The notes below the pieces were generated by a model, which was given only the letters and a program-made list of their open reading frames with translations, did not search any database and was not told the DNA's origin. A stretch of DNA of 32,184 bases from an uncultured Bacilli bacterium (GTDB lineage: Bacteria > Bacillota_I > Bacilli_A > RF39 > UBA660): contig CALVQN010000003.1 in assembly GCA_944358135.1 (NCBI GenBank), positions 1-32,184 of the forward strand, in the 5' to 3' direction. Below are positions 2,334 through 31,731 of this stretch, piece by piece; within the stretch, counting starts at the first letter, position 1, and every line of letters starts with the position of its first letter. Position numbers and translations under genes: made by a program.

Positions 2334-2363
2334 TCAAAAAAACAGCTAAAGAACAAGCTGTTT
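2334..2363 (-). terminator. Terminator of surface protein gene 1
   Basis: On the minus strand: AACAGCT (plus coordinates 2356-2362), 8-nt loop, AGCTGTT (2341-2347), then a U-run. The hairpin abuts the stop codon. Confidence 0.8.
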
Positions 2364-3702
2364 ATTGAACTTTATAAGGGTCAAATACTGTTCCTGAACC
2401 AGTTATGGTTACATCAGCAGATAAATTTATAACAGGTCTGACACCAAATGAATCACTTACGAAATATCTGCTGAAATTACCACTCGAACTCACATAAAAT
2501 ACGAAAGGATAACTACCGTCAAAAAAAGAGGGAGTCATTGTCCAATAATTCTGTTCTGTATAAAGATAATTATTGATTGTTGTATCATTATATGCTAATC
2601 CTCCATATACTACTTCATCGGCGGTGATGAGTCCTATTGGATAATCTAAAACTTTATTCCCTTGACTACTACTTGCTACTGTGTATAAATCACTATTATT
2701 TTGACATTCGAAGGTTGGAGTTCTATTTGTAAGCAACCTTATAAATGCTCCATAGTAAGTTTGAGTCGTCCCTGTTCCACCTCCGACCGTAGTCCCTGAT
2801 GTGTTAGTATAGTTTGATCTATCTCCACAGAATCCTGCTTCTGTACTTAGATATTGTGCATAATCGGCTTGAATATTATCTTCATACCAAGTATCAAGTA
2901 CTCCTTTTATTGTACTATCATTTATGAGTCCATATACTTGTCCACTTTGATACATATATCCTACATACGCGTTGTTATTATCTGTACTATTAAATGCACT
3001 TTTCCCTATTTGTGTACCTTCTCCTGTTGATACAGGCCCACTAGAACTATTACCGCTATAAATTAATCTTATACTTCCATCTTCATTAATTCTTATAATT
3101 CTCCAGTAGAATCCTGCAAATTGTACCCAATTATCTGTTGGATTTCCTGCAAAATAATATGTTCTTCCGTTGCTTGTATCTTCATAATATATAGTTCCAG
3201 TTGTAGTATCTTCTACCGTTGTACTAAAATCTGCTCTTGTTAATTGATTAGTGGAATTAGCAAGTATTTGTTCTCCAGCAGTTATAGTTTGACCTATATC
3301 AAAATACAAATAACACTTAGTACCTTTTTTAGTTATATTATCTACACTTATTGAACCATTTTCATATATTATACTTACTGTATCATCTTTAACTATTTCT
3401 CCATTATTGGATCTGCCACAATAACTTTGTTCTGTATTTAATATATATCCACTTGAAGGTATCGTATCTGCTTCAACATAGGTTCCATCTTCATTTGCCA
3501 CATATAAAGATACCATATTTAAATCGGGTACTTTATAATTTATCTTACTATTAATTATAGGCACACTATCTTTTACTCTGTATTTTGCTAATGTATTACT
3601 TACTATTATCGTAATAAGAAGTACTACTACACAGACAATTCCAATAAAAAGATATAATCTATTTTTATTAGATTTTATTGTTTCAAATTCTAATTCTTTC
3701 AT
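2362..3702 (-). CDS. Membrane-anchored surface protein with variable lectin-like tail (paralogue 1)
   Basis: 446 aa. A lysine-containing cytoplasmic N-terminus and one hydrophobic segment (about residues 17-38) make it a signal-anchored protein with the rest outside the cell. The next ~110 residues (KVPDLNMVSLYVANEDG through TKKGTKCYLYFD) are nearly identical to the protein at 29235-30527, then sequence diverges. The C-terminal ~250 residues (FAGFYWRIIRIN, DGSIRLIY, YWTMTPSFF, GVRPVINLSADV) resemble C-type-lectin-like display domains found on diversity-generating retroelement targets; this fold call is inference from motif layout. Residues about 392-419 are the hypervariable stretch that aligns with the AAY-rich template at 5911-6014. 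Its ribosome site (GGAGGAGTT) is strong. It is divergent from the XRE pair at 3785-4376. Ligand unknown. Confidence 0.8.
   Translation of the reverse strand: MKELEFETIKSNKNRLYLFIGIVCVVVLLITIIVSNTLAKYRVKDSVPIINSKINYKVPDLNMVSLYVANEDGTYVEADTIPSSGYILNTEQSYCGRSNNGEIVKDDTVSIIYENGSISVDNITKKGTKCYLYFDIGQTITAGEQILANSTNQLTRADFSTTVEDTTTGTIYYEDTSNGRTYYFAGNPTDNWVQFAGFYWRIIRINEDGSIRLIYSGNSSSGPVSTGEGTQIGKSAFNSTDNNNAYVGYMYQSGQVYGLINDSTIKGVLDTWYEDNIQADYAQYLSTEAGFCGDRSNYTNTSGTTVGGGTGTTQTYYGAFIRLLTNRTPTFECQNNSDLYTVASSSQGNKVLDYPIGLITADEVVYGGLAYNDTTINNYLYTEQNYWTMTPSFFDGSYPFVFYVSSSGNFSRYFVSDSFGVRPVINLSADVTITGSGTVFDPYKVQ
2432..2532 (-). repeat. Variable repeat 1 (candidate retroelement target site)
   Basis: This tail of surface gene 1 aligns without gaps to the AAY-rich template over 48 bases (2464-2511 against 5942-5989). 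Nine of 18 template-adenine positions differ, against 7 of 30 other positions. The background has also drifted (GTA for GTG, GGT for GGC), so this copy is older or came from a related template. The conserved GVRPVI coding block follows. Confidence 0.65.
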
Positions 3703-3784: not shown

Positions 3785-4105
3785 ATGAAAAAAATAGATT
3801 TTAATAATTTAGAAGAGCTGTTATCTTTTAATATCAAATATTACAGATATTTGAATGGTTTATCTCAAGAAAAATTATCAGAATTAACAAATTTAGTACC
3901 ATCATACATTTCTGATATTGAAAGAGGTAGACACATGCCTACCATCAAAAATATAGCCAATATAGCCAAAGCTCTAGATATAGAACCGTATATTTTACTT
4001 AAAAACGTAGAAAGAGATAATGAAATATTATCAAAAATAAACTCAACAAGACAATATAATCAAAATAATAGGAGAGATACAAACAATGACAAAACTAACC
4101 TTTAA
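3785..4105 (+). CDS. XRE-family transcriptional regulator (first of pair)
   Basis: 106 aa with one Cro/C1-type helix-turn-helix spanning about residues 12-70 (LSQEKLSELTNLVPSYISDIERG is the classic helix 2-turn-helix 3 pattern). A basic, asparagine-rich tail ends the protein. No ligand or protease domain is present. It overlaps the next gene by 20 bp and shares with it the domain and a tail containing RQYNQ, so the two arose by tandem duplication. It faces away from surface gene 1 across an 82-bp spacer, the arrangement repeated at 30.5 kb; control of the surface gene is inferred from that. Ribosome site: AGGAG. Confidence 0.85.
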   Translation: MKKIDFNNLEELLSFNIKYYRYLNGLSQEKLSELTNLVPSYISDIERGRHMPTIKNIANIAKALDIEPYILLKNVERDNEILSKINSTRQYNQNNRRDTNNDKTNL

Positions 4106-4376
4106 TAATCTAAAAGATTTATTAATATTTAACATTAAATACTATCGCTATGTAAATGATTATTCTCAAGAAAAGCTAGCGGAATTATCAGGTTTAAGCT
4201 CTAGATATATTACAGACATTGAAAGAGGACTCCATTGCCCAACTATTCCCAAACTAGAAGCTATAGCCAATTCCTTAAAAATTGAACCTTATATTCTATT
4301 TCAAAATCCTGATAGAGATGAAAAGATCATAGAAAAAGTAAATACAAATAGACAATATAATCAAAGAAGCAAATAA
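4086..4376 (+). CDS. XRE-family transcriptional regulator (second of pair)
   Basis: 96 aa and paralogous to the gene just upstream, with the same domain layout: Cro/C1 helix-turn-helix at about residues 12-70 (YSQEKLAELSGLSSRYITDIERG) and a tail containing RQYNQ. An AGGAG site lies inside the 3' end of the upstream gene and the coding regions overlap by 20 bp, so translation is probably coupled. The two proteins may bind as homo- or heterodimers; sequence alone cannot say. A terminator follows immediately. Confidence 0.85.
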   Translation: MTKLTFNNLKDLLIFNIKYYRYVNDYSQEKLAELSGLSSRYITDIERGLHCPTIPKLEAIANSLKIEPYILFQNPDRDEKIIEKVNTNRQYNQRSK

Positions 4377-4426: not shown

Positions 4427-5626
4427 TTACTTCTTTAACTCTATATTTTCTAATGGTTCCCACTCAATATATTTATACATATTACTATTTAAATGTATAA
4501 ATTCAGTAGGTTTATATTTATGAAAAAATCCACTACATTCAATTGGTAAAACAGTATCAGGAACAATTCCTAAATGATCAATTCCTTTAAAAGCATTTTT
4601 TATTATTTCTACATTATATATTTGAATTGGAATATTATTCTTATGAAACGCTATAAATATTTTGGCTATTTCAATCTTTCTTAAGATTCTACTTCCATCA
4701 AGTGATAAATAAAAACCATTATCATCATGATCAATATATAAATTAACTCTAGCAAAAGAATGTCCTCTTATTATTTCCCAAGGATGTCCTCCAAATTTGC
4801 TATCATCATTGTACCATTGATCAAATTCAAAGCTACTTTCCTCAGATATTTTGCTTAAACCTTCATTTCTACCATCAGCATATTTTAAATATAACTCTTT
4901 ATCGGTTAAATCATTTATTTCATAACCAATAGTTTGATATGCTAATCCTACACACTTAAAATACATACCAGAAGTCATATTTTTAATTCTTTGATCGGTA
5001 TTTTCACAAGCATACTTTATAAAGTAATCTATTTCTTCTTGAGATATTTCATTTAATAATTCTTTTTTTACATCAGGAAATACCTGCCAATATTTACTCC
5101 TATTTATAAGTCCAAAACGATTTTTATAAGGATAATTATTATTTATATAATCATTATAAGTTCCTTCATTAAGTTTTACAAAACAGGTTTTTACGGTAGA
5201 TATTAAAAAATCTAATAATTCTTGTAATTGATAATTTTCAAAAGTATTATTTTCACTATTCATATCTGCATAAACAATAGTTTTAGAATTAATTGATATC
5301 ATACGATAATTTTTATACATCGTAGAAGTCATTTTATACCAATAAACATCATCAGGATAATCTTCATTAAACATATTTTCAAATTCTATATAATTATCTA
5401 CTTCGCCATCTTCTTTCAATTCTTCATAATTACCATATTCTTCAATTGCACCTTTTGGTAGATCAAAATATAATACTTTGTATTCATCGTCTGATAATGG
5501 TTTTATTTTATCAAGCAAATCATATAATATATTTAGTTTTTCTTTTACTTTAACATCATAATCCTCAGGATTATAATTTTTAATTTCTAAAATACTTATC
5601 AAAAAGTCTAACTTTATAGCTGTCAT
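4427..5626 (-). CDS. Hypothetical protein, 399 aa
   Basis: I do not recognise a named family. The protein is acidic and soluble with no signal peptide or membrane segment. The first ~60 residues are helical and charged, followed by an Asp/Glu/Tyr-rich region. The best-defined block is around residues 270-325: GGHPWEI, then a short stretch with alternating hydrophobics (VNLYIDHDDNGFYLSLDG) and a helix with FIAFHKNNIPIQIYN. Such a GGHPxEI...L.L.G arrangement reads like a compact enzyme or binding domain, but I cannot assign activity. There are no reverse transcriptase motifs (no YxDD), which matters because it lies next to the template repeat. Ribosome site GGGATTAGGAA precedes the ATG. It stands alone. 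Confidence 0.75.
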   Translation of the reverse strand: MTAIKLDFLISILEIKNYNPEDYDVKVKEKLNILYDLLDKIKPLSDDEYKVLYFDLPKGAIEEYGNYEELKEDGEVDNYIEFENMFNEDYPDDVYWYKMTSTMYKNYRMISINSKTIVYADMNSENNTFENYQLQELLDFLISTVKTCFVKLNEGTYNDYINNNYPYKNRFGLINRSKYWQVFPDVKKELLNEISQEEIDYFIKYACENTDQRIKNMTSGMYFKCVGLAYQTIGYEINDLTDKELYLKYADGRNEGLSKISEESSFEFDQWYNDDSKFGGHPWEIIRGHSFARVNLYIDHDDNGFYLSLDGSRILRKIEIAKIFIAFHKNNIPIQIYNVEIIKNAFKGIDHLGIVPDTVLPIECSGFFHKYKPTEFIHLNSNMYKYIEWEPLENIELKK

Positions 5627-5730
5627 TTCCTAATCCCCTCAATTCTTAATTACAGTAATATTGTATATTTTTTTATTTATAAAGTCAACAAAGTTATTTA
5701 AAGTAATCACTTTTCAGTAATAAATAAACA

Positions 5731-5760
5731 AATAACCCCAATACTTAAATTGAGGTTATT
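5731..5760 (-). terminator. Terminator-like hairpin downstream of the template repeat
   Basis: AATAACCCCAAT pairs with ATTGAGGTTATT with one mismatch around a 6-nt loop. On the minus strand the following bases are T-rich but interrupted (TTTGTTTATT), so efficiency is uncertain. Confidence 0.5.
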
Positions 5761-5896
5761 TTAATATTGTCCTAATTTTAAATGTCTGATTTAAAATATC
5801 AATACTATATATTTAGGTAATTTTCATTGGTTAATCTTGTATCCTAATGCTTTTTAACTCAACCTTAACCAAACTCTAAGTTTAAAAGGATATTGC

Positions 5897-5916
5897 CCTG
5901 TCAAGCGCCTAACAGG
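5897..5916 (-). other. Hairpin at the 3' end of the template repeat
   Basis: CCTGTC (5897-5902) pairs with AACAGG (5911-5916) with one wobble; the 8-nt loop is GC-rich. Structured sequence next to the repeat end is common in diversity-generating retroelements, but in known ones the functional hairpin is next to the target, so the role here is open. Confidence 0.4.
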
Positions 5917-6014
5917 ACATCATTATTTTATTATTCACCCAATTGTTGTTGAGGTTGCCATTCGAATTCACATTGAACACGTTAGCATTAGTTCCATTAA
6001 AGATATACGGAGAC
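5911..6014 (-). repeat. Candidate template repeat of a diversity-generating retroelement
   Basis: Read on the minus strand this aligns codon for codon with the variable tails of both surface genes. In its 16-codon core (5942-5989) nine codons are AAT or AAC and there are no other adenines. Against surface gene 2, 10 of 18 adenines are changed and only 1 of 30 other bases. This adenine-specific pattern is the hallmark of mutagenic retrohoming. The frame has stops on either side (TAG upstream; TAG after the TGT codon) and homology ends at the repeat limits, so it is not a translated gene. Two missing bases near the CCTGTTA end put that end out of frame with the targets, which could be the non-transferred priming segment. 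Confidence 0.8.
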
Positions 6015-6029
6015 TATAACACTTGCCCA

Positions 6030-6090
6030 AGTAATTAGATTAACCACTCTAATTATAGCACCACTAACCTTTAACTTAAAGTATATATTC
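6030..6090 (-). promoter_or_regulatory. Possible promoter for the template RNA
   Basis: On the minus strand TTTAAG, 17-nt spacer, TATAAT (plus 6052-6057) would start transcription about 30 nt before the template repeat. An 8-bp inverted repeat overlaps the -10. The -35 is poor, and read-through from the amidase is an alternative. Confidence 0.35.
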
Positions 6091-6106: not shown

Positions 6107-7465
6107 TTAAGGAATAACCAAAATCTGTCCAATAGAAAGCAAATCACTAGAAAGACCATTCGCTTGCTTTAAAGCATTTACACTAACACCATAAGTTGTG
6201 GCAATCTTCCATAAACTATCTCCTGATTTAACTGTATAAGTTCTTGCACCAGTAGTAGTAGGAATTACAAGTACTTCACCAATAGAAAGTAAATTAGAAG
6301 TCTTACCGTTTGCACTCTTTAAAGCATCGACAGTTATCCCATATTTCCTTGCAATACTATATAAAGAGTCTCCACTTTTAACAGTATAAGTATTCGATGG
6401 ATTAGATGGAGTTGTAGAGCTATTACTTACATTTAAAACCTGTCCAATACTTAAAGTATCACTAGATAAATTATTTAATAATTTAAGTTCACTAACAGTT
6501 AAACCATACTTATTAGCAATAGAATATAATGTATCTCCAGCTTTTACTGTATAAGCTTCAAGTGTAGCTGCATTACCTTCACTAACTACTAATTCTTGTC
6601 CTATAGACAAAGCATCACTAGTAAGATTATTCAATGATTTAAGTTCATTTACAGTCATACCATACTTATTGGCAATACTATATAAAGTATCTCCACTCTT
6701 AACTATATAGACATTCTCATCAGGTGTTTCAGGGACTTCTATTTCTGGAATAATTAAAACCTCACCAATAGTTAAAGTATTACTTGTTAAATTATTCTGA
6801 GCCTTAAGTTCATCCACACTTATTCCATATTTACTAGCAATACCATATAAAGTATCTCCCGCTTTTACTGTATAATAATTACCAGTAGTTCCACCTGGAG
6901 CTACATAAGGAACTCCTATATAACTAGCTAAAGCTCTTACAACTGCCTCAGCAAGTTCCTGCCAATTATTTTTAATTTGATTTACATCATCTCCTGTAGA
7001 ATCAAGAAATCCATACTCAACAATAATTGATTCATTATTAGGCGTTTCTCTTAACATATAATAATAATCTTTACTAGAATTACTAGGAAGTCTTCTTTGA
7101 TAATATTTTCTAACATTCTGACCAGATTTAATAAATTCACTAGCTATCTTACTAGATAAAGTATCACTATTTCTTAAAGCGTAAATAACTTCAGCTCCGT
7201 CCCCTCCACCTGCATTAATATGATTAGATACAAGAATTACATCACTACCTGTACCAAACAAACTTTGAGCAGTCTTAGGTCTAGTAGTAGAATCTAAAGT
7301 AACATCGCTATCTCTAGTTAAAGCATTTTCAATACCTAGTTCAGATAAACGATCAGCCATATACTGACTAATTTTTAAAGTATAATCTTTCTCAACTATA
7401 CCATTAGCACTTGCACCAGGATCTTCTCCACCATGCCCAGGATCAATAACAACCTTTTTAGCCAT
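6107..7465 (-). CDS. N-acetylmuramoyl-L-alanine amidase with five LysM repeats
   Basis: About 452 aa. An N-terminal zinc amidase domain (Amidase_3, residues ~1-185) carries the ligand set: His in DPGHGG, Glu in VEKDYTL, His in VSNHIN and the catalytic Glu in IVEYGF. It would cut the bond between MurNAc and the stem peptide. Five LysM modules follow, each starting YTVKxGDxLxxIAxxYG and separated by short Thr/Ser/Pro linkers; they bind glycan strands. No signal peptide is visible. The start at 7465 (MAKKVV) is chosen because it is 6 nt from AGGAGG, while an upstream ATG at 7471 touches the site. It lies after the jag terminator, so it has its own promoter. The template repeat begins about 90 bp downstream. 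Confidence 0.9.
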   Translation of the reverse strand: MAKKVVIDPGHGGEDPGASANGIVEKDYTLKISQYMADRLSELGIENALTRDSDVTLDSTTRPKTAQSLFGTGSDVILVSNHINAGGGDGAEVIYALRNSDTLSSKIASEFIKSGQNVRKYYQRRLPSNSSKDYYYMLRETPNNESIIVEYGFLDSTGDDVNQIKNNWQELAEAVVRALASYIGVPYVAPGGTTGNYYTVKAGDTLYGIASKYGISVDELKAQNNLTSNTLTIGEVLIIPEIEVPETPDENVYIVKSGDTLYSIANKYGMTVNELKSLNNLTSDALSIGQELVVSEGNAATLEAYTVKAGDTLYSIANKYGLTVSELKLLNNLSSDTLSIGQVLNVSNSSTTPSNPSNTYTVKSGDSLYSIARKYGITVDALKSANGKTSNLLSIGEVLVIPTTTGARTYTVKSGDSLWKIATTYGVSVNALKQANGLSSDLLSIGQILVIP

Positions 7466-8129: not shown

Positions 8130-9152
8130 TTACTTTCCTTTCTTTTTATTATTTTCCTTCTTCTTTTTCTTATCTTTATGAGGAACAATAATTTGATCTT
8201 TCTTTTCTTCTTTCTCATCTATCTTTTTAAAGACAAAATTTTGAAGAACAACAAATCCATTCGTAGCAATCCAATATAATGCTATCGCTGTAGATAAATA
8301 TAAAGATGCTACCGAAATCATAATAATCATAAATTTAAAGATAAACTGCATTTGTCTCTCCATATCTGCATTACCTGTTTGAGTAGTAGACATAGAATTT
8401 TTAAATGACAAATATGTAGTAAGAATAATAAGTCCAATAATAATGATATAAGCCCATTGATGATACTCAAATAGTCCTTTCATCGGTGTTTGACCTAAAG
8501 TAAGACCCAAGAAAGTATCTTCAAATATTGCAGGAGTTCTATTAATCGCTTGTAAGAAAGCAAAGAATAGAGGAAGTTGAATAAAAGCAAGCAAACAACT
8601 ACCAAAAGGACTAATATTATATTTTTTATATACTAGCATCATCTCTTGAGACTTAGCAAGCATTGATTCATTATCTTTCTTATTTGCATACTTCTTTTCA
8701 ATTCTAGCTATTTCTGGTTGAGCTTTCTTCATATTACTAGATTGTTTCATAGTTTTTCTAGAAATAGGCATTAATATCAAACGAATAGCAAGACCAATCA
8801 ATATAACTGCTAAACCAAAACTATGAATTAAGTAACCCAACTTCATAATTAAGAAAGCAAGAGGTTTAACAAATATACCTTCCCAAATTCCATCAGATTC
8901 ATTACTTGATAAACTAAAATCAGAACATTTTGGCAAATCATCATAATTAATTTTAGTTTGATCTCCATACTCTTGATACAAAGCATCTAACTCTTCATCT
9001 TCTGGCCTACATAATATATCTTTTTGTAAAATCTGACCAGTTTTTTCAAATTCTACTGGAGTTCCATCTTCATTCATAATGTAATTACTATTACCACAAG
9101 CAGTAAGAGAAAATACCAATAAAACTAATATCCCTATTTTAATTTTTTTCAT
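8130..9152 (-). CDS. yidC: Membrane protein insertase YidC (lipoprotein type)
   Basis: 340 aa. It begins with a lipoprotein signal whose lipobox is SLTACG (cleavage before Cys ~19), as in the Bacillus SpoIIIJ/OxaA type. The insertase core has a first long membrane segment (~95-125, with LIGLAIRLILMPISRKTMKQSS, split here by its conserved Arg), a helical hairpin rich in Lys/Gln/Glu, and further membrane segments (SPFGSCLLAFIQLPLFFAF, then two more). The tail is very lysine-rich, as usual for ribosome contact. It inserts membrane proteins with or without SecYEG. It overlaps rnpA by 14 bp. Confidence 0.95.
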   Translation of the reverse strand: MKKIKIGILVLLVFSLTACGNSNYIMNEDGTPVEFEKTGQILQKDILCRPEDEELDALYQEYGDQTKINYDDLPKCSDFSLSSNESDGIWEGIFVKPLAFLIMKLGYLIHSFGLAVILIGLAIRLILMPISRKTMKQSSNMKKAQPEIARIEKKYANKKDNESMLAKSQEMMLVYKKYNISPFGSCLLAFIQLPLFFAFLQAINRTPAIFEDTFLGLTLGQTPMKGLFEYHQWAYIIIIGLIILTTYLSFKNSMSTTQTGNADMERQMQFIFKFMIIMISVASLYLSTAIALYWIATNGFVVLQNFVFKKIDEKEEKKDQIIVPHKDKKKKKENNKKKGK

Positions 9153-29234: not shown

Positions 29235-30527
29235 TTATGAAACTAAATATGGATCAGTACTTGTTCCTGAACCTGATATTGTAACATCAGCAGAAAGATT
29301 AATTACTGGGCGTACACCACTCGCACCATGCACGTGATTGTTGCTGAAGCCGCCAGACGAATACACATAGAACACGACAGCATAACTGCCCGTAGAATTA
29401 AAGTAATACGGAGACATTGTCCAATAATATTGGTTATTATATAAGTAATAACTTGTATTATTTGTTCCATATACTCCTCCTGCAAAAGCTACTTCATCTG
29501 CCGTAATGAGTCCTACTGGTTCGGCGATGATATCACTAGTTGTACATGCCAAACTTGGGCTTTTATTACTATCTAATCTTCCATATGCTGCATAGTTGAT
29601 TGTGCTACTTGGTTGGCTACTCCACGAATATCCACTTGCCATGTTTCGATCACTACAGAATCCTACACTTGTATCGATATAATCTGCATAATCATCTAGA
29701 TTACTACTTGTATACCATGACTGTAGTGTATTGAGTATTGGACTATCTGTTGTTTGTCCATGTTGACTTCCTTCTGTATATTTTAATCCTACATACTCAC
29801 TCCGATCATGACTACTATTAAATTGTTGCTTTGCTCCATTATTGATCATTGTTCCTGTTCCTGTTGCTGTAGTACTTGTTCCATTATAGATGAGTCTTAC
29901 ACTTCCATCTCCATTTACTCTTACGATTCTCCAGTAGAATCCTCCAAATCTTACACAGTTATCGGTTGGTGCTCCTGCAAAGTAATATGAAGTTCCTTTC
30001 CAATCTGTTGTTTCATATATAACTCCTGTTGTTGTATCTGTAACTGGTGTACTAAAATCTTCTCTTGTCTGAATGTCTTTTCCTGCTAATATCTGATCTG
30101 CTGCTGGTAACTCTTCATCAAAATACAAATAACATTTAGTACCTTTTTTAGTTATATTATTTACATTTATTGAACCATTTTCATATATTATACTTACTGT
30201 ATCATCTTTAACTATCTCTCCATTATTAGATATTCCACAATGACTATGTTCAGTATTTAATGAATATCCACTTGAAGGTATAGTATCTGCTTCAACATAA
30301 CTTCCGTCTTCATTCGCTACATACAATGACACCATATTTAAATCGGGTACTTTATAATTTATCTCACTATTTATTATAGGTACACTATCTGTTACTCTAT
30401 ATTTAGCAAATGTATTACTTACTATTATTGTTATAAGAAGTACTACTACACAGACAATACCACATAAAAGATATAATCTATTCCTATTAGATTTCAATAT
30501 TTCAAATTCTAATTCACTCTTTTCCAT
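29235..30527 (-). CDS. Membrane-anchored surface protein with variable lectin-like tail (paralogue 2)
   Basis: 430 aa, paralogous to the protein at 2362-3702. Basic N-terminus, membrane anchor at ~18-40, then the near-identical stalk (NYKVPDLNMVSLYVANEDG, TKKGTKCYLYFD) up to ~137. The C-terminal domain contains VRFGGFYWRIVRVNGDG, AEPVGLITADEVAF, YYWTMSP and GVRPVINLSADV. Residues ~374-403 are the hypervariable stretch; they differ from the template repeat at 5.9 kb almost only at template adenines, with a 2-codon insertion just before. By position this is the exposed end of the protein and would vary ligand binding (inference). Divergent from XRE genes at 30680; a TTTTCC-rich leader precedes it, ribosome site weak. 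Confidence 0.82.
   Translation of the reverse strand: MEKSELEFEILKSNRNRLYLLCGIVCVVVLLITIIVSNTFAKYRVTDSVPIINSEINYKVPDLNMVSLYVANEDGSYVEADTIPSSGYSLNTEHSHCGISNNGEIVKDDTVSIIYENGSINVNNITKKGTKCYLYFDEELPAADQILAGKDIQTREDFSTPVTDTTTGVIYETTDWKGTSYYFAGAPTDNCVRFGGFYWRIVRVNGDGSVRLIYNGTSTTATGTGTMINNGAKQQFNSSHDRSEYVGLKYTEGSQHGQTTDSPILNTLQSWYTSSNLDDYADYIDTSVGFCSDRNMASGYSWSSQPSSTINYAAYGRLDSNKSPSLACTTSDIIAEPVGLITADEVAFAGGVYGTNNTSYYLYNNQYYWTMSPYYFNSTGSYAVVFYVYSSGGFSNNHVHGASGVRPVINLSADVTISGSGTSTDPYLVS
29305..29415 (-). repeat. Variable repeat 2 (candidate retroelement target site)
   Basis: Aligned to the template (29337-29384 against 5942-5989): 11 differences, ten at template adenines, giving A-to-T, A-to-G and A-to-C changes; one C-to-T. 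Unchanged words include GTG TTC, TCG and AAC AAT. Upstream there is a 6-bp insertion relative to the template. Distance from the template is about 23.3 kb, on the other side of the origin. Confidence 0.78.
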
Positions 30528-30635: not shown

Positions 30636-30679
30636 AAAAAAGAATTCTATTTATGAGAGAATGAATTCAGGTGTTATTT

Positions 30680-31144
30680 ATGAGATATTACGGAGATAGA
30701 TTGAAATACATAAGAGAGGAGCATGACCTCAGTCAGTATGAAATATCCGAATTATTAGGTTTTAAAAAAAGAGTATATGGTAATTTTGAACGTGAGGAAA
30801 CTATTATTCCTTTAAAACATTTAAATTTTTTATGCAACTATTTTAATGTTTCTTTAGACTATATATTTGGTTTTAGTAATGAAAAAAAATATAAAAACAT
30901 GAAAGAAGAAGTGAATACAAACTTAATAAGAGAGCGATTAAGAAAATTGAGAGAGGAACATAATTTAACACAAAAAGATTTAGCTAAGATATTACATGTA
31001 TCCCCTTCTGCTATATCTGAGTATGAGAGAAAAGCAAAATTAATTGCTACTCCATTTCTCTATGATATATGTAAAAAATATCACATTAGTGCTGACTATC
31101 TTTTAGGTAAAATACATAAGCCACAGTATTATAAAAATGAGTAA
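30680..31144 (+). CDS. Double XRE-domain regulator
   Basis: 154 aa with two Cro/C1 helix-turn-helix domains in tandem (~5-62 and ~82-140). Domain 1: LSQYEISELLGFKKRVYGNFERE; domain 2: LTQKDLAKILHVSPSAISEYER (both quoted with 20 or so residues as helix-turn-helix). Each is followed by a DYIFGF/DYLLGK-like segment, so the gene arose by internal duplication. The ATG at 30680 follows AGGTG; an in-frame GTG at 30671 overlaps that site. It faces surface gene 2 as the other XRE pair faces surface gene 1. Likely regulator of that gene or of itself (inference). Confidence 0.82.
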   Translation: MRYYGDRLKYIREEHDLSQYEISELLGFKKRVYGNFEREETIIPLKHLNFLCNYFNVSLDYIFGFSNEKKYKNMKEEVNTNLIRERLRKLREEHNLTQKDLAKILHVSPSAISEYERKAKLIATPFLYDICKKYHISADYLLGKIHKPQYYKNE

Positions 31145-31163
31145 AGTTAAGAATCTTTAATTT
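31145..31163 (-). repeat. 19-bp inverted repeat, right arm
   Basis: AGTTAAGAATCTTTAATTT, exact reverse complement of 30553-30571, immediately after the XRE stop. Confidence 0.85.
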
Positions 31164-31195
31164 CTGATTTTATTATATCATTAATATTAAATACG

Positions 31196-31229
31196 GTCAA
31201 GAGAAAACACACTATTACATGACAAATAT
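31196..31229 (+). repeat. 34-bp direct repeat, copy 2
   Basis: Same 34 bases as 30602-30635, offset 594 bp, upstream of the frameshifted XRE copy. Confidence 0.85.
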
Positions 31230-31273
31230 TTAGCAATACATTAATTATGAGAAAATGAATTTGGTGTTTAATT

Positions 31274-31731
31274 ATGAGATATTATGGAAAAAGATTAAAA
31301 TATATTAGGGAAGAACATGAATTTAGTCAATATGAAATATCCGAATTATTAGGTTTTAAAAAAAGAGTATATAGCAATTTTGAACGTGAGGAAACTATAT
31401 TCCTTTAAAACATTTGAATTGTTTATGCAACTACTTTAATGTTTCCTTAGATTATATATTTAAATTTACTGATGAAAAAAATTATAAAAATATAAAAAAA
31501 GAAATCAATAAAAGCTTAATAAAAAAGCGATTAAAAGAGGTAAGATTAGAATATAATCTCACTCAAAAAAAGTTGGCCGACATATTACATATATCGCTTT
31601 CAACTATATCCAAATATGAGAGAGAAGCAAAATTAATTGCTACTCCATTTCTTTATGATATATGCCAAAAGTACAATATTTCAGCTGATTATCTTCTAGG
31701 TAAAATAGATAATCCCAAGTATTTGAAATAA
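31274..31731 (+). pseudogene. Frameshifted double XRE-domain regulator
   Basis: Near-copy of 30680-31144 with the same start context. A single base is missing near 31396-31402 (the intact copy has GAAACTATTATTCC, this one GAAACTATATTCC), which breaks the frame inside the first domain. The remaining open part (31414-31731, 105 aa) still encodes the end of domain 1 and a whole second domain (YNLTQKKLADILHISLSTIS), so a truncated one-domain protein could be made. The frameshift could also be a sequencing error, since it lies in an AT-rich repeat. Confidence 0.75.

Follow-up and report, generated by a model that had tools for sequence, protein, structure and literature searches.

Dispersed genes for structured template RNAs in Candidatus Caccenecus suggest a multi-template diversity-generating retroelement, with a probably inactive copy in one uncultured strain

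The window analysed here is a 32,184-nucleotide stretch of DNA (contig CALVQN010000003.1) from an uncultured Bacilli bacterium. Its minus strand carries an element that is very likely the template repeat (TR) of a diversity-generating retroelement (DGR), embedded in a gene for a structured RNA (TR-RNA), and two surface-protein genes of one family (Table 1). The TR is non-coding, and the variable region (VR) is the 3' end of the target genes. The TR gene is followed directly, on its own strand, by a 399-aa ORF (4427-5626) that had no Pfam match. Small Xre-type HTH regulator genes, one or two and divergent, repeatedly adjoined variable surface genes, in the window at 3785-4376 and 30671-31731, and also at L091, L092, L094, L103, and L104. 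The target protein matched DUF6273 weakly, and a solved-structure profile search with it gave no match. Its AlphaFold model, built to look for a C-type lectin fold, had pLDDT <50 in the VR, too poor there, and Foldseek gave no significant fold match.

Table 1. Features of the template-RNA gene and of the two surface genes in the window
Feature	Position	Strand	Evidence
Promoter-like -10 box TATAAT of the TR-RNA gene	6052..6057	-	Consensus match alone
GGTTAATCT, 5' strand of closing helix P1, likely RNA start	6037..6045	-	P1 paired in 99.8% of cells, 60 TRs
TR core, Asn-rich, non-coding	5930..6014	-	Homology to surface-gene 3' ends and other TR copies
Hairpin CCTGTTAGGCGCTTGACAGG occupying the position of the initiation-of-mutagenic-homing motif (IMH, GGTGTGCGCCC)	5897..5916	-	Pattern found 6 times in the genome, always within TR copies
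Helix P2, 5' strand, TATCCT	5887..5892	-	Genus consensus structure
Helix P2, 3' strand, AGGATA	5840..5845	-	One position with UA, CG, and AU pairs across the genus
Helix P1, 3' strand, AGATTAACC	5829..5837	-	Genus consensus structure
Terminal hairpin P5	5775..5798	-	Compensatory changes within the genus in 8/8 pairs
Structured 3' tail, full length	5771..5909	-	Covariance model R1, 95.5 bits, E 8.8e-16; sole match in the window
Terminator-like hairpin 3' of the RNA gene	5722..5760	-	Fold alone
Surface gene 2 of DGR target type, 430 aa with an N-terminal membrane segment	29235..30527	-	VR about 29305-29416
Surface gene 1, 446 aa, same family	2362..3702	-	VR about 2432-2536

When the minus strand of 5942-5989 was re-aligned directly with 29337-29384 in surface gene 2, the 48 bases showed 11 differences, of which 10 affected template adenines and the other was C>T. 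All 18 template adenines of this core lie inside nine AAT/AAC codons, as read from the sequence, and the alignment reported in the preliminary description was exact. By chance, 10 or more of the 11 differences would fall on these 18 of the 48 sites with a hypergeometric probability of 6e-5, a value that ignores the choice of this stretch by the earlier reader. Neither of the two findings that had been named as contrary to a template repeat was obtained, these being related genomes with differences as frequent at other bases as at adenines, or with 5911-6014 inside a full-length surface gene. The interpretation as a DGR template repeat was supported, a canonical DGR reverse transcriptase (RT) with an Avd gene being present in close relatives. 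The extent first given, 5911-6014, held for the presence of a template but not for its limits, in that the TR-core homology covers 5930-6014 (minus strand) and the whole RNA gene about 5771-6045. Over the full core, surface gene 2 differed from the window TR at 15/28 template A and 6/56 non-A positions with 6 gap columns, compared to 16/32 A and 4/58 non-A positions with zero gaps for a TR on contig C7 of the same genome. The TR on C7, not the window TR, is the better-fitting template. The VR of surface gene 1 was no longer traceable to the present TRs (non-A 15/56).

The genome of the window's strain (G000) is a draft MAG of 1.27 Mb in 109 contigs, 91% complete. Searching it revealed additional non-coding copies, two on contig C12 and one each on C7, C29, C63, and C39, together with a related surface gene on C67, and the RNA model found eight TR-RNA loci, one of them tail only. 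The single TR originally pictured near the origin thus gives way to eight dispersed loci, and since copies are scattered all over the genome, proximity to the origin has no special meaning. The copies have in common an Asn-rich core, followed by a tail without relation to surface genes. The TR-RNA gene, of about 275 nt, consists of TATAAT, a 5' strand that pairs with the 3' side, the Asn-rich TR, the IMH motif, and a covarying 3' tail. A TATAAT-like box was located a few bases 5' of GGTTAATCT in most of the TR copies examined (consensus match), and the TR-RNA genes would be transcribed from these promoter-like boxes of their own. TR genes alternating with DUF1016/YhcG-type nuclease genes formed gene-TR-gene-TR arrays at L088 (G000 C12), L072 (G014 C5), and L073 (G009 C30).

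A consensus structure was obtained from 60 TR sequences of the genus Candidatus Caccenecus, which comprises uncultured Bacilli of animal guts represented by draft MAGs. It contains five helices outside the TR core, one of which joins both ends of the RNA. Pairing was maintained in 97.9% of cells, and double-sided changes were found in 19 of 33 pairs. Shuffled alignments gave 11.0 +/- 1.5 doubly changed pairs, none of 500 reached 19, and slid controls were far lower. An Rfam search with the TR-RNA matched no family. The tail structure is retained in the window copy, as its score with model R1 indicates (Table 1).

We further compared 81 variable genes from five genomes with the TRs of the same genome, using a cut-off of <12% non-A mismatch. 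With TR sampling incomplete, 19 of the 81 VRs, in four of the five genomes, traced to a TR. In these 19 pairs combined, 277 of 571 template A (48.5%) were mismatched versus 68 of 1238 other bases (5.5%), and the identical selection applied to C, G, or T yielded zero TR-VR pairs. The 19 VRs were assigned to 11 different TRs, three in G000 (C39, C7, C29), one in G028, six in G026 (where six VRs were assigned to six of seven TRs), and one in G017, each single assignment being approximate because the best and second-best TR were often 2-3 non-A bases apart. Examples were a gene on C84 of G000 with the TR on C39 (A 14/28, non-A 1/72) and L317 with L138 in G026 (A 18/31, non-A 1/68). In G004, none of the 11 sampled VRs traced to a present TR at this cut-off, and most of the remaining variable genes had no close match to any present TR; the sampling of TRs was incomplete, and older VRs diverge. 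When TRs of G000 were compared with each other, the rates were similar at all bases (A.11, C.16, G.15, T.12), and outside G000 there was at most a mild excess at A (in G004,.27 versus.16-.18 for the others). The presence of the A bias between TR and VR but not between TRs argues that A-specific change runs from the TR to the gene, as in DGRs. Candidate targets, recognised by the variable C-terminal domain, numbered 40-94 per genome. This domain had 94 matches in G004 (about 1.5 Mb) and 66 in G028 (about 1.3 Mb), a very large part of the gene set.

A DGR is usually pictured as a single RT and a single template in one cassette, and a TR beside the RT is usual although not strictly required. In close relatives of the window's strain, a DGR RT of 370-380 aa is present, preceded by an Avd gene and a MutS-I-like gene. 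The RT matched PHROG phrog_1423 (E 4.7e-86), and its best PDB match was 8ub7_A, a 328-aa RT (E 5.7e-27) that we take to be the bRT of BPP-1. Avd matched the PHROG entry "Avd protein of DGR" (E 4.7e-15), as well as Pfam bAvd (2.6e-9, 38 bits, cut-off 40) and NCBIfam DivGenRetAVD (1.3e-9), the latter two below cut-off. At the RT loci examined in the genus, only VRs and no TR were found next to the RT among the matches listed. TR-RNAs were present in 32 of 36 Candidatus Caccenecus genomes, at 1-25 per genome; G017 (99% complete), for example, has 11 TR-RNAs and a single type-1 RT. A type-1 RT or its remnant occurred with TR-RNAs in 25 genomes and without them in none, while seven genomes had TR-RNAs without a recognisable type-1 RT and four had neither (Fisher p 0.0056, 36 genomes). 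The RT is interrupted by an insertion in G001 and contains frame breaks in G012, G007, and G009; assembly errors are possible. The insert in G001 (C47, L106, about 7185-7295) is a palindrome of about 100 bases that splits the DGR RT, starting with GGTTGAGCAAAGTTATTTATTATGC and ending in its reverse complement. In a second genus, one genome (G137) combines a single RT with 12 dispersed TR-RNAs. In G229, G063, and G231, from other genera of the family, model R1 found a related tail close to the RT in single-TR DGRs, which makes a compact cassette the probable ancestral state.

The window's strain has lost most of this machinery. Its own RT locus was assembled on C51 with a deletion at C51:7576. 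Compared to G001, a segment that starts at the end of the MutS-I-like gene, includes avd, and reaches about RT residue 300 is missing, the flanks match at 78-79%, and the RT remnant consists of the last 60-70 codons. No intact DGR RT and Avd were found in the 91% complete draft; since the draft is incomplete, another RT might lie in an assembly gap. Two other RTs of G000, L001 (C8, 1120-2385) and L002 (C79, 3-434, cut by the contig end), had their best PADLOC scores with RT_VI and RT_Ec107-like. They were considered as the mutagenic engine and set aside, as these scores are of the retron/defence type and nothing links them to the TRs.

The IMH has also been exchanged in six TRs of this strain. 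It is present in most TRs of relatives, and in the TR on C39 the core still ends as the genes do, in GGTGTGCGCCC, ahead of the tail. In the other six G000 TRs (window, C7, two on C12, C29, and C63), the IMH is absent and a hairpin takes its place. This hairpin is GC-rich and identical in all six, and a pattern search found it nowhere else in the genome (6/6 occurrences inside TRs). Related hairpins replace the IMH in TRs of G001 (C44), G010 (C52), and G006 (C11 and C95). G010 has an intact RT yet carries hairpin TRs, so the hairpins are not simply a consequence of RT loss. The core of the C29 TR differs at 1 of 87 positions from a TR of G009 (L147) in which the IMH is still present, and the exchange in the window's lineage therefore looks recent. 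At the IMH site, the hairpin may serve as a lock or an alternative element, or it may be a relic. Integron-like cassettes, suggested by a GTTAGGC core in the hairpin and by the gene-TR-gene arrays, were dropped because the hairpin was found only in TRs and what is repeated is an RNA gene. With avd and most of the RT deleted and the IMH replaced, the window copy is most likely inactive, and probably a relic; of the template repeat and the recently active relic offered initially, the latter is the better option.

We consider it highly probable that this is a DGR whose templates multiplied into dispersed, autonomous, structured TR-RNA genes served in trans by one RT-Avd, and that the window copy is most likely inactive. 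The proposal builds on what can be read from the sequences, namely the TR family, its RNA structure, the A-specific TR-VR differences for several TRs, and the RT and Avd genes; transcription, RNP formation, and retrohoming would be its predicted steps. In intact relatives, any TR-RNA would be bound at its structured 3' tail by the one RT with Avd. Reverse transcription of the TR would introduce errors opposite adenines, and the resulting cDNA would take the place of the matching 3' end in one among dozens of surface-protein genes. The loop lengths and backbones encoded differ between TRs. On these sequence grounds, the multi-template architecture appears well supported in the genus. A stronger version, to which we give about even chances, is a combinatorial DGR in which one RT-Avd, 10-25 independently expressed TR-RNAs, and 40-94 surface genes combine template choice with A mutagenesis, and in which the IMH-hairpin exchange retires templates.

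Other explanations account for parts of these data. The non-coding copies could be decayed 3' ends of surface genes, that is, pseudogene fragments spread by duplication or recombination, and they do contain the motif that the surface genes encode at their 3' ends, and some copies lie near such genes. However, every copy has a covarying tail foreign to the genes, with which its 5' strand pairs, the TR cores can be near-identical between species (C29 versus L147 of G009) whereas the genes are hypervariable, and the gene-TR differences are adenine-specific, which makes this the least credible of the readings. Only slightly more credible are silent donor cassettes acting by gene conversion without an RT, with the A bias produced by selection on Asn codons. 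Many donors and many recipients, as in silent-cassette antigenic variation, and the persistence of templates in some strains where no RT was found would fit, but plain conversion copies donor bases unchanged, whereas here about half of the template A differ while 94.5% of other bases match, and the TRs are accompanied by RT and Avd in most genomes.

The ends GGTTAATCT and AGATTAACC resemble terminal inverted repeats, and together with the tandem arrays and the 1-25 copies they might indicate a MITE-like mobile element that captured a surface-gene fragment. The ends, however, form a covarying RNA helix enclosing further helices, TR copies track RT presence, and related tails lie near the RT in the single-TR DGRs of G229, G063, and G231, so that such an origin is highly improbable. 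That the window TR still works, with an RT from the unassembled 9% or the retron-like C8 RT acting on it in trans, is unlikely to a lesser degree. The RNA structure of the copy is intact, the VRs of the genes on C84 (A 14/28, non-A 1/72) and C43 of the same genome look recent, and the assembly is incomplete. Against it stand the conserved RT locus, which was assembled with a clean deletion, the retron/defence-type scores of the C8 RT, and the absence of the IMH.

The system resembles the DGR of the Bordetella phage BPP-1 in its related RT and Avd, A-specific TR-VR change, AAY codons, an IMH at the 3' end of TR and VR, and a structured RNA 3' of the TR, which in BPP-1 is described as recruiting bRT-Avd (PMC12875486). 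It differs in that the single TR of BPP-1 lies between avd and brt in one operon, whereas Caccenecus has 1-25 dispersed TR genes with promoter-like boxes and no TR detected beside the RT among the matches listed. DGRs with remote targets or acting in trans, described for Treponema denticola (PMC4891356), cyanobacteria (PMC7517822, PMC8867640), and Thiohalocapsa PB-PSB1 (PMC10907252), likewise have several target genes and targets far from the RT; they disperse targets, while Caccenecus disperses templates too, in the form of a gene family for structured RNAs. Genomes with more than one TR are also reported, in one case with up to 6 unique TRs (PMC6642488) and in two zeta crAss-like phages with several TRs (PMC12386605). 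The former is termed atypical there, with few A-to-N changes, and the passages of neither paper describe dispersed promoter-bearing RNA genes. Within the genus, the second DGR (G014 C2, L094, 6919-10513) is alike in having an RT, Avd, a MutS-I-like gene, a VR gene, and a TR (8802-8897) with a similar GGTTAAG motif downstream, and differs in being a compact cassette with one adjacent TR.

A search of the open-access DGR literature returned no description of one RT acting in trans with many separate templates. The new part would thus be the architecture, in which a single enzyme would serve many separate templates in trans, with 40-94 candidate targets. Such an arrangement would be overlooked by surveys that seek a TR beside the RT. 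The covarying TR-RNA family provides a natural many-sequence alignment for the RNA expected to be the substrate of the RT-Avd complex. Repeated RT losses that left the templates in place are a natural experiment on surface diversity after the engine stops. If the proposal is true, with promoter-bearing TR genes and dozens of targets per genome, the DGR would be an organised repertoire, nearer to gene-segment libraries.
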